Shown here in pieces: positions 36,540-39,484 of a stretch of 64,000 nt of DNA. The stretch's first letter is position 1, and the number at the start of each line of letters is the position of its first letter. The notes under the pieces are model-generated. The model was not told the DNA's origin and did no database searches. It saw nothing but the letters and a program-made list of their open reading frames with translations. The position numbers were made by a program, and so were the translations under genes. This stretch comes from Nocardioides dongkuii (lineage in GTDB: Bacteria > Actinomycetota > Actinomycetes > Propionibacteriales > Nocardioidaceae), in the NCBI RefSeq assembly GCF_014127485.1, contig NZ_CP059903.1, positions 3,470,001 through 3,534,000 of the forward strand. The letters run 5' to 3'.

Positions 36540-37649
36540 TCAGCGGACGACGCGGACGCCGATCGTGCTGCTGCTGGCGGTGAAGCCGTCGGCGGGCAGG
36601 TAGCGGACCTTCAGCAGGTAGCGCCCCGCCGCCCGCGCGGGGAGCACGACCTCGACCGCGCCGCCCTTGAGGCGCACCTTCCTGACGACCTTGCCGCCGT
36701 AGGTCACCTTCACGGCTCCGGTCGGCGTGATGCCGGCCGCGGCCACCCTCACCGTGGCCGTGGGACGGGCGCCCGGGCGGACCTGGGTGGGCACCCGGAT
36801 CCGCGTCTGCGTGACCGCCCTGGCCACCTTTCCGGCGGAGGCGGTGGCCGTGCCGGTCACGTGGTCCGGCTTCGCCGCCGAGACGACGACCGCGACGACC
36901 CGACGGGCGTCGGCCGGCCGCAGCCGGTACGTCGTGCCGGTGGCGCCGGAGATCGGCTTGCCGCCCCGGGTCCACTGGTGGGACACGGCGACGTCCTCGT
37001 GGCTCCACGCCCCGCCGGTGGCGGTGAGCTTCCTGCCCACCGTCGCCGTGCCGGTCACCCGCGGGGCCGTGGTGGCCACCGGGGCGGCCTTCGCGGCCAC
37101 CTCCACCGGCACCGTCCCCACGTCCGCCGTGGTCGTGGCGACCCGGTCGGTGGTGACGGTCTCGAGGCTGCTCGCCGACACCGAGACCGGGCCGACCTCG
37201 GTCGCCGTGAACGTCACCGAGGCGAGGGTGACGGCGCCGGTCGCGCTCGGCGAGGTGCCGAGCTTGGTGTGCACGACCTCGAGGGTCCCGTCCTCCTCGA
37301 GGCCGTACGTCGCGCCGGTGAGCTCGGTGGCCGCGCTGCCCTCGACGTACTCGAGGGCCTCGGGGTCGAACTCCAGCGTCAGGTCGTAGGCGTAGAGGTC
37401 GGTGACGTCCTCCGCGGAGACGGTGACGGTGAGCGTGTCCCCGAGCACCACCTCCTCGGCCGACACCGCGATGCCGTAGCCGTCCAGCGCCACCGGCTCG
37501 TCGAGCCGGGGCTCGGCCGGCCCGGCGACGGCGGTCGGGACCCACGCGAGGGCTCCCAGCCCCAGGGCGAGGGCGGCGAGCCCGCCGACCCGCCGGCGCC
37601 GCTCGGTCATCCTCGGCGTCCTCTCGACGGTCTTCTCGACGGTGCTCAC
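36540..37649 (-). CDS. Secreted cohesin-domain protein with two Ig-like domains
   Basis: The 369-residue protein has a signal peptide (n-region with RRRR at 17-20, hydrophobic core about 21-38, cleavage near AVAGPA), a cohesin-like beta-sandwich (about 59-185) with GDTLTVTVSAEDVTDLYAY, LTLEFDPEALEYVEGSA and VTLASVTFTATEVGPVSV, then an Ig-like module (191-275) and a second Ig-like module (283-369). No sortase, SLH or transmembrane anchor is visible. GTG 37649 is chosen because GGAGG lies 4 bp upstream and it overlaps the amidase stop as GTGA; ATG 37610 is an alternative. Its partner gene encodes a dockerin-like module, so the two products may bind each other. Confidence 0.78.
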   Translation of the reverse strand: MSTVEKTVERTPRMTERRRRVGGLAALALGLGALAWVPTAVAGPAEPRLDEPVALDGYGIAVSAEEVVLGDTLTVTVSAEDVTDLYAYDLTLEFDPEALEYVEGSAATELTGATYGLEEDGTLEVVHTKLGTSPSATGAVTLASVTFTATEVGPVSVSASSLETVTTDRVATTTADVGTVPVEVAAKAAPVATTAPRVTGTATVGRKLTATGGAWSHEDVAVSHQWTRGGKPISGATGTTYRLRPADARRVVAVVVSAAKPDHVTGTATASAGKVARAVTQTRIRVPTQVRPGARPTATVRVAAAGITPTGAVKVTYGGKVVRKVRLKGGAVEVVLPARAAGRYLLKVRYLPADGFTASSSTIGVRVVR

Positions 37650-39484
37650 TGGTCCTCCAGCGCGGGGTAGAGCACCGGCGCGGTGCGGTGGCGGGTGGCC
37701 TGCTCGTAGTCGTGCGCGAGCCCGATCAGCAGGCCTTCGGAGTAGCTCGGGCCGAGCAGCTCGAGGTTGACGCCCGCACCCGGGATCGCCTCGGACGCCG
37801 TGGCCTGGCCCATCGGGGCCGACACGGCCGGCATGCCCGTGTTGGGGCTCAGCCGCAGGTTCGTGCCGATGGTCCCGTAGGGGTTGCCGCTCGGGTACAT
37901 GAGCGCGTCGAGGTCGTGCTCGGCGAGCAGCGCCTCCACCGCGACCTCGCCGTTGGCGATCGCCGTGCCGTGGGTGCCCATCCAGGTCTGGTACTGCTGC
38001 GGGGTCACCGCGTTGCGGCTGGTGTAGGTGCTCGCTCGGCCCGGGACGACGTGGCCCGAGTCGATGATCGCCTGGAGGCTCCGCGTCGGGACGTCCGGGT
38101 CGAGGTGCTCGGCGATGTAGATGTCGAGGTCGTGCTTGAACTCGTTGGTGCTCCCGCTGCCCTCGTTGAGGGTCGCGGTGATCGCCGCCGGCGTGGTGGC
38201 GATCTCCACCACGGTCGCGCCCTGGGCGGTCAGGTCGGCCTTCGCCCGGTTGAACAGCCGCACCGTGGTGGCGTTGGTGCCCACCATGCTGGACAGGAAC
38301 CCGATCCGGGTGCCCTCGAGCGCCGTCGGGTCGAGATAGGAGGTGTACGACGTCGGCACCTTGCCCTGCTGCTCGGAGGTGAGCGGGTCGTTCGGGTCGA
38401 TCCCGGTGACGGCATCGAGGGCGATCGCGGCGTCGGAGACCGTCCGCGTCATCGGGCCCCCGGTGTCCTGGCTCAGGGCGAGCGGGACGATGCCGTCCCG
38501 GCTCGCCAGCCCGGTCGTGGGCCGGATGCCGACGAGCTGGTTGTACGACGACGGGACCCGGATCGAGCCCCCGGTGTCGCTGCCGAAGCCGATGCCGCCG
38601 AGGTTCGCAGCGATGGACGCGCCGGTGCCGCCGCTGGACCCCCCTGCGGTGCGGGCCAGGACGTACGGGCTGGCGACCAGCTTGGAGGACCCCGGCTCGC
38701 TCTCGGTCGTGTACTCCGAGGCGAACCCGAACGCCCACTCGTCGAGCGTGGCCTTCGCCAGGACGACCGCCCCGGCGTCCCGGAGGCCCTCGACCATGAA
38801 CGCGTCGTCCTCGGTCTGGTTGTTCTTCCAGCTGCCGTGACCGGCACTGGTGGGCATGTCGCGGGTGTCGTAGTTGTCCTTCACGACGACCGGGACGCCG
38901 TCGAGCATGGTGCGCGGCCCGCCGTTCGCGGTGCGGGCGGCGTCGCTCGCGGCCGCGGCGTCGAGCGCCGCCTGGCCGCCCGTGGTGATGATCGAGTTCA
39001 GCGCGCGGGGGTGCGCGGCGTCGGTCAGCTCGTCGTACGCCGCGATCCGCGCCAGGTAGTCCCGCGTCAGCTCCACCGAGGTCGTGACCCCGGCGTTCAT
39101 CGCCTTCTGCATGTCCAGGGCGGACGCCTCGACGAGCGAGAACGGCCCGTCGTCGTAGACGATCCGCTGGGACAGGTCGGCGACGTCGGTCAGCTCGATC
39201 TCGCCGTCGGCGTCCAGGTCGGCGGCCGCCACGGCGGCCCATCCCGCGTCCCCGGTCTCCGTGCCCAGGGCCTCGACCAGCAGGTCCAGGTCGTCCTGGG
39301 TCACCTGCTCGTCGTCGGTCAGGTCACCGGTCGTGTAGTACGGCGCGAGGTAGGGACCCCCGTCCCCCGGAGCCGCCGGCGCGGCCGCCTCCGAGCTCGC
39401 CGGCCCGGCGGTGCCGGCCGTGAGCACGGCCGCACCCAACGCCGCCACGGCGAGCGACGCGCGGGACCTCCTCGACTTCTTCAC
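37646..39484 (-). CDS. Secreted amidase (amidase-signature family) with N-terminal dockerin-like module
   Basis: The 612-residue protein starts MKKSRRSR and has a signal peptide to about residue 32. Residues 53-110 form a dockerin-like pair of calcium loops, DLTDDEQVTQDD (54-65) and the canonical DLDADGEIELTD (89-100), each followed by a helix. The amidase-signature domain (about 115-605) has Lys202 (VVVKDN), Ser283/284 (GGSSGG) and nucleophile Ser307 (DTGGSIR), a complete Ser-Ser-Lys triad. It hydrolyses an unknown amide outside the cell. It is coupled to the cohesin-like gene, and the pair is inserted between acpS and nnr. Confidence 0.85.
   Translation of the reverse strand: MKKSRRSRASLAVAALGAAVLTAGTAGPASSEAAAPAAPGDGGPYLAPYYTTGDLTDDEQVTQDDLDLLVEALGTETGDAGWAAVAAADLDADGEIELTDVADLSQRIVYDDGPFSLVEASALDMQKAMNAGVTTSVELTRDYLARIAAYDELTDAAHPRALNSIITTGGQAALDAAAASDAARTANGGPRTMLDGVPVVVKDNYDTRDMPTSAGHGSWKNNQTEDDAFMVEGLRDAGAVVLAKATLDEWAFGFASEYTTESEPGSSKLVASPYVLARTAGGSSGGTGASIAANLGGIGFGSDTGGSIRVPSSYNQLVGIRPTTGLASRDGIVPLALSQDTGGPMTRTVSDAAIALDAVTGIDPNDPLTSEQQGKVPTSYTSYLDPTALEGTRIGFLSSMVGTNATTVRLFNRAKADLTAQGATVVEIATTPAAITATLNEGSGSTNEFKHDLDIYIAEHLDPDVPTRSLQAIIDSGHVVPGRASTYTSRNAVTPQQYQTWMGTHGTAIANGEVAVEALLAEHDLDALMYPSGNPYGTIGTNLRLSPNTGMPAVSAPMGQATASEAIPGAGVNLELLGPSYSEGLLIGLAHDYEQATRHRTAPVLYPALEDQ

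Follow-up and report, generated by a model that had tools for sequence, protein, structure and literature searches.

A dockerin-bearing amidase and its neighbouring cohesin protein in Nocardioides: a probable pair of one enzyme and one receptor

We found two adjacent genes in the window (the whole stretch of 64,000 nucleotides analysed here) that probably encode a dedicated enzyme-receptor pair, in which the cohesin protein would be a surface receptor that holds one amidase at the cell envelope. The first gene encodes an amidase with an N-terminal dockerin, and the cohesin gene lies directly downstream of it on the minus strand, with the tetranucleotide GTGA common to both. The pair looks less like a chance resemblance than like a device for displaying one enzyme at the surface. 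The original prediction, made from the DNA sequence, had described a signal-like amidase N-terminus, calcium loops at residues 54-65 and 89-100 (the second canonical), a complete amidase triad and the GTGA overlap; all of these were borne out by the sequence, by Pfam and by alignment with the peptide amidase PAM. The features of the two genes are:

37646..39484, minus strand: dockerin-amidase gene (612 aa, GTG start; open reading frame with Pfam Amidase and Dockerin_1)
39392..39484, minus strand: signal-peptide-like N-terminus of the amidase, approximately residues 1-31 (KKSRRSR, a hydrophobic stretch and small residues, read by eye)
39146..39358, minus strand: dockerin domain, residues 43-113 (Pfam Dockerin_1; calcium-ligand positions near-invariant in relatives)
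39290..39325, minus strand: calcium loop 1, residues 54-65, DLTDDEQVTQDD (D54, T56, D58 and D65 conserved)
39185..39220, minus strand: calcium loop 2, residues 89-100, DLDADGEIELTD, canonical (D89, D91, D93 and D100 conserved)
37667..39145, minus strand: amidase-signature domain, residues 114-606 (Pfam PF01425; closest solved structure peptide amidase PAM)
38879..38881, minus strand: codon of the putative catalytic Lys202 (by alignment with PAM, 5ac3; invariant)
38636..38638, minus strand: codon of the putative cis-Ser283 (by alignment with PAM, 5ac3; invariant)
38564..38566, minus strand: codon of the putative nucleophile Ser307 (by alignment with PAM, 5ac3; invariant)
37646..37649, minus strand: GTGA stop/start overlap of the amidase gene and the cohesin gene (sequence)
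36540..37649, minus strand: gene of the cohesin-Ig protein (369 aa, GTG start; open reading frame with Pfam Cohesin)
37521..37649, minus strand: signal-peptide-like N-terminus of the cohesin protein, approximately residues 1-43 (RRRR, a hydrophobic stretch and AVA/GPA, read by eye; model confidence low there)
37086..37484, minus strand: cohesin domain, residues 56-188 (Pfam, AlphaFold model, Foldseek matches to cohesins)
37248..37271, minus strand: conserved cohesin motif HTKLGTSP, residues 127-134 (candidate dockerin-binding strand or loop; peak of conservation over 29 cohesins)
36804..37082, minus strand: Ig-like domain 1, residues 190-282 (basic, pI approximately 11.6; model, composition, similar tails elsewhere in the genome)
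36543..36803, minus strand: Ig-like domain 2, Big_3_5-like, residues 283-369 (basic, pI 12.0; Pfam, model, composition)

Searches with the cohesin and dockerin profiles of Pfam had been proposed with the original prediction, and both gave matches. Dockerin_1 (PF00404) matched residues 53-108 of the amidase with 22.2 bits (E 1.6e-4) in the whole-protein search, just under its cut-off of 22.9 bits, and the same dockerin reached 26.8 bits, above the cut-off, in a six-frame search of the whole genome. The profile matched 30 out of 32 orthologues at E<=0.01. The two calcium loops carry acidic or polar ligands at positions 1, 3, 5 and 12; in the actinobacterial proteins position 3 of loop 1 is T, the usual residue being D or N. 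These ligand positions were conserved in all groups and, where dockerin, amidase and cohesin are fused in one chain, in 13 out of 14 proteins for each loop. We rejected a chance EF-hand as the explanation of the loops: calmodulins in the PDB were also matched by the dockerin profile of the family, as calcium loops are, but the cellulosomal dockerin 2y3n was among the top two matches, Pfam chose Dockerin_1 in those 30 orthologues, and the neighbouring cohesin is independent support.

The amidase-signature domain was recovered in full (PF01425, E 1e-71), and residues K202, S283 and S307 aligned with the Lys-cisSer-Ser triad of PAM and were invariant in 18 orthologues. PAM was the nearest solved amidase both by sequence and by fold, the latter computed on a fused orthologue, while the NCBIfam amidase equivalog PRK08137 scored 336.9 bits on the window amidase, below its cut-off of 534. 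Signal-like N-termini were also present in the amidase orthologues. The window genome encodes a second PAM-like secreted amidase (G000:C1:944049-945914, minus strand; locus L074), to which a basic Big_3_5-like tail is attached directly, without a dockerin.

For the downstream protein, a cohesin at residues 59-185 followed by two Ig-like domains had been predicted, in agreement with what Pfam and the structural model gave. Pfam Cohesin (PF00963) matched residues 68-169 with 47.9 bits (E 2e-12; cut-off 24.1), and the isolated domain scored 50.8 bits. The AlphaFold model (mean pLDDT 89.6) placed the strands of the cohesin beta-sandwich at 58-185 and two further beta-sandwich domains C-terminal to it (190-282 and 283-369), the last of which scored 31.9 bits against Big_3_5, under the Pfam cut-off of 35.5. 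The top PDB match of the cohesin model in Foldseek was the Clostridium perfringens cohesin-FnIII construct 2w1n, and the cohesin modules 2jh2 and 2vo8 (C. perfringens GH84C/NagJ and GH33) also ranked high. In the alignment of 29 cohesins, HTxLGTSP was the most conserved stretch; its position is one that we take, from CipA cohesin structures, to be the dockerin-binding strand or face of type I cohesins. The two Ig-like domains have a pI of 11.6-12, against approximately 4 for the cohesin and the amidase, and similar Ig tails were found on several other secreted-type open reading frames of the same genome.

Profile searches of the 4.2 Mb window genome recovered one cohesin and one above-cut-off dockerin, and the two are adjacent, which is more than expected by chance. 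On the features examined, the two proteins belong to the dockerin, cohesin and amidase-signature families. A cellulosome, which requires several cohesins and many dockerin enzymes, is ruled out in this strain by the same counts, and the prediction of a dedicated, secreted and non-cellulosomal cohesin-dockerin pair was supported. A close orthologue of the dockerin-amidase was carried by 20 out of 299 genomes of the family. A cohesin accompanied it in 20/20 of these Nocardioidaceae cases, fused at the C-terminus in 13 and encoded by the adjacent downstream gene in 7 (window included). In 22 Nocardioidaceae genomes, every above-cut-off dockerin sat on this amidase. Among 18 actinobacterial genomes reached via other loci, a second cohesin was found in none (0/18) and a second dockerin in one (1/18). 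A Herbiconiux genome held a second dockerin-like match, in a 1259-aa secreted-type protein that ends with LAATG and a hydrophobic helix (L176:2333-6109).

The association extends beyond the family. We drew 80 loci from GTDB genomes by patterns from the amidase part, with the dockerin excluded from the patterns; together with the family search they gave 64 distinct dockerin-amidases, of which 2 at contig ends were left out. A cohesin was adjacent or fused in all the readable cases (62/62, although the relatedness of the genomes makes this fewer independent events than it looks), whereas none of 44 dockerin-less amidases (0/44), some of the same family, had a cohesin within up to 1.5 kb or 5 kb on each side. 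The corresponding Fisher figure of 7e-31 ignores kinship and is not readable as a probability. We also drew 300 Microbacteriaceae genomes, some of them shared with the 62/62 count, and found 20 dockerin-amidases; 18 were readable, and all 18 had a cohesin.

The distribution of the system is patchy, with 20/299 genomes in the family, 20/300 in Microbacteriaceae and hardly any when the phylum was sampled evenly. That sample comprised 397 Actinomycetota searched with the cohesin profile, and matches came from the window and from four genomes of a single genus only; with at most 10 candidates scored per genome, this result reads as patchiness and not as absence. The four genomes (G527, G557, G638 and G691; L184-L188) have giant open frames (>2000 aa) with weak cohesin-like domains. 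The cohesin matches of genome G053 were discarded as false, since they fell below the cut-off and inside a long repeat protein. A plasmid search gave no match to the pair.

The part of the partner protein that follows the cohesin differs among lineages. In nearly all Micrococcales partners, the cohesin is followed by a Pro/Thr-rich linker, an LAxTG/LPxTG motif, a hydrophobic helix and an Arg-rich tail; LAxTG is the signal recognised by class E sortases of actinobacteria (PMC5148588). Paenibacillus and Cohnella partners have three SLH domains after the cohesin, and Nocardioidaceae partners have Ig-like domains. The sortase signals and SLH domains of the orthologous partners point to a surface receptor, and it is from these lineage-specific tails that we infer this role for the cohesin protein. 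The original prediction had noted no cell-surface anchor: this stands for the window cohesin protein, in which SLH, LPxTG-type and transmembrane motifs, and with them the signature of a surface-anchoring scaffoldin, are absent, and it does not stand for the orthologous partners. Five sortases are encoded in the window genome, so a missing enzyme does not account for the lost anchor. In place of an anchor, the Ig tail may give a weaker, non-covalent hold, which is the least certain step of our proposal.

Under this proposal, both proteins would be secreted, and the N-terminal dockerin of the amidase would bind the cohesin of its neighbour with calcium in a 1:1 complex. The cohesin protein would keep the amidase at the cell envelope, by sortase anchoring (LAxTG type) in Micrococcales and by SLH domains in Paenibacillaceae; in Nocardioidaceae, the anchor would be replaced by the basic Ig-like domains, perhaps binding anionic wall polymers, or amidase and cohesin would form one fused chain. 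Amides would be cleaved near the cell, with peptide amides, the substrates of PAM, as the most likely targets, and ammonia and the acid product would be freed close to uptake systems.

Cohesin-SLH proteins of approximately 350 aa were also seen beside large secreted enzymes other than the amidase (GH85, GH30-like and others) in Paenibacillus daejeonensis (genome G317; L168-L170, L173) and P. oryzisoli (L174, L175); these enzymes have a C-terminal cohesin and, where present, FIVAR and a dockerin. The arrangement looks like a set of surface-display pairs, each with one enzyme, within a single genome. The layout of one enzyme and one cohesin-SLH protein thus recurs with glycoside hydrolases in Paenibacillus, and the principle may be wider.

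The order of the two genes is not fixed. Downstream cohesin genes were found in Paenibacillaceae, Oerskovia and some Nocardioidaceae including the window, and upstream ones in most Microbacteriaceae and in Cellulosimicrobium, Georgenia and Demequina, while most Nocardioides encode dockerin, amidase and cohesin as one polypeptide. The amidase tree, in which the dockerin-less amidases used formed one group (support 99/98), requires several switches among the downstream, upstream and fused states. The partners thus stay together through changes of order and fusion, which makes linkage by inheritance alone unlikely. Cohesin and amidase distances were correlated (r 0.70, Mantel p 0.001), and dockerin and cohesin distances had a partial correlation of 0.40 given the amidase; shared ancestry contributes to both values. 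Alignment A3 was left out, because its cohesin-only rows were misplaced by MAFFT. The location between acpS and nnr given in the original prediction was confirmed, and it is common to a Nocardioides clade.

The window and two relatives formed a split-gene trio (98/97) inside the fused group, with weaker support for this placing (87-89). The tree therefore suggests, with a moderately supported placing, that the split pair of the window arose by gene fission. The description of the locus as a self-contained two-protein system is too simple, since 13 of the 20 Nocardioidaceae cases are single polypeptides and the split form of the window lies inside their group. These same two observations favour a different reading, namely that the fused protein is the working form, with the dockerin binding the cohesin of the same or the next chain (as a latch or as a head-to-tail amidase chain), and that the split in the window is a recent fission which left the assembly unchanged. 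Nearly every fused protein has kept an intact dockerin, so joining the modules covalently has not rendered it useless. Nevertheless, we consider this reading unlikely: in all cases seen outside Nocardioidaceae the genes are separate, mostly with anchors, and one fused protein (L061:5528-8425) has lost half its dockerin through deletion of the second calcium loop, possibly as decay after fusion. It is likewise a doubtful, if conceivable, idea that the intact flanking dockerin and cohesin of the fused Nocardioides proteins would form a calcium-dependent latch or head-to-tail amidase chains, and that in the window pair, as a natural fission, docking would replace the lost peptide bond. At locus L063, which with L061 is the exception to the conservation of the calcium ligands, the frame is broken within the dockerin. 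The single-chain model of the fused protein at L091, with only three fused rows behind it, was poor in its cohesin part (mean pLDDT 66).

The reading as one enzyme with its own receptor also has to be weighed against the cohesin protein being a receptor or adaptor of general use, with several secreted proteins as clients and the amidase as only one of them. The original prediction had expected profile matches in both proteins and neither gene regularly alone. This held on the amidase side, with the 62/62 against 0/44 given above; on the other side, two related genomes (G021 and G049) keep the cohesin-Ig protein beside an M28/PA-domain peptidase (L070:7374-8525 and L071:7502-8617) without this amidase. 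A dockerin was not detected in the genomes of G021 or G049, so the partner can be present where the amidase is missing; in these cases the cohesin may be an orphan, or its partner module may have escaped recognition. The cohesin protein that adjoins an M28 peptidase (genus g21) and the many cohesin-SLH genes beside other dockerin enzymes in Paenibacillus are what such an adaptor would give, but the window genome has no further dockerin above the cut-off, nearly all of the actinobacterial genomes tested have no more than one, and we regard this explanation as improbable. Very improbable indeed is that the domains are vestigial or otherwise used (a calcium-stabilised linker, an adhesive beta-sandwich), with an adjacency that is inherited and not functional: the dockerin scores lie close to the Pfam cut-off and position 3 of loop 1 is not acidic, but the contrast with the dockerin-less relatives is complete, gene orders are rearranged, and the calcium ligands and the HTxLGTSP motif of the cohesin are conserved.

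Cohesin-dockerin display is a known principle, and its pairs have been studied mainly in multi-enzyme cellulosomes; Peer et al. reportedly surveyed non-cellulosomal modules in 2009. We did not find this actinobacterial pair, with its single enzyme and partly fused forms, described in the open-access literature searched, and its novelty is provisional. The pair would represent a minimal actinobacterial system of one enzyme and one receptor, with three receptor tails, a natural fusion and a probable fission. In such a system the purpose of docking (surface retention) becomes testable by deletion of a single gene, and protein engineering would gain small cohesin-dockerin pairs and sortase-anchored parts for display. 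A 2015 study of Cellulosimicrobium cellulans F16 reported that both cohesin and dockerin were lacking (PMC4562250); other strains of C. cellulans carry the system (a dockerin-amidase at a contig end in L100, both genes in L107).

Among known systems, PAM of Stenotrophomonas maltophilia (1m21, 1m22 and 5ac3) is the closest solved amidase and has the same triad positions, but it matches the amidase part only, is about one third identical and has neither dockerin nor cohesin. The non-cellulosomal cohesins of C. perfringens (NagJ/GH84C, 2w1n and 2jh2; GH33, 2vo8) are the best matches to the window cohesin by sequence and fold, and they too belong to secreted enzymes that carry docking modules in the absence of a cellulosome; there, however, the cohesin is on the enzyme, whereas the present cohesin belongs to a separate non-catalytic protein or forms the last module of a fused amidase. 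A class with a dockerin and one cohesin on one chain has been named (PMC11557425). The fused Nocardioides proteins share this combination and differ in having a catalytic amidase between the modules and no other dockerin or cohesin in the genome to bridge. Finally, single-cohesin anchoring scaffoldins of the SLH and LPxTG/nonSLH types are known as classes in cellulosome bacteria (PMC11557425, PMC5817068). They likewise carry one cohesin on a surface-held protein that receives dockerin proteins, and the Paenibacillus and Micrococcales relatives match them closely. The differences are that here each receptor serves one enzyme and is co-encoded with it, in actinobacteria, without a multi-cohesin scaffoldin or a glycoside hydrolase, and that the window cohesin protein has no anchor motif. 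By analogy, the mechanism should be like that of the single-cohesin anchoring proteins, reduced to one enzyme and one receptor.
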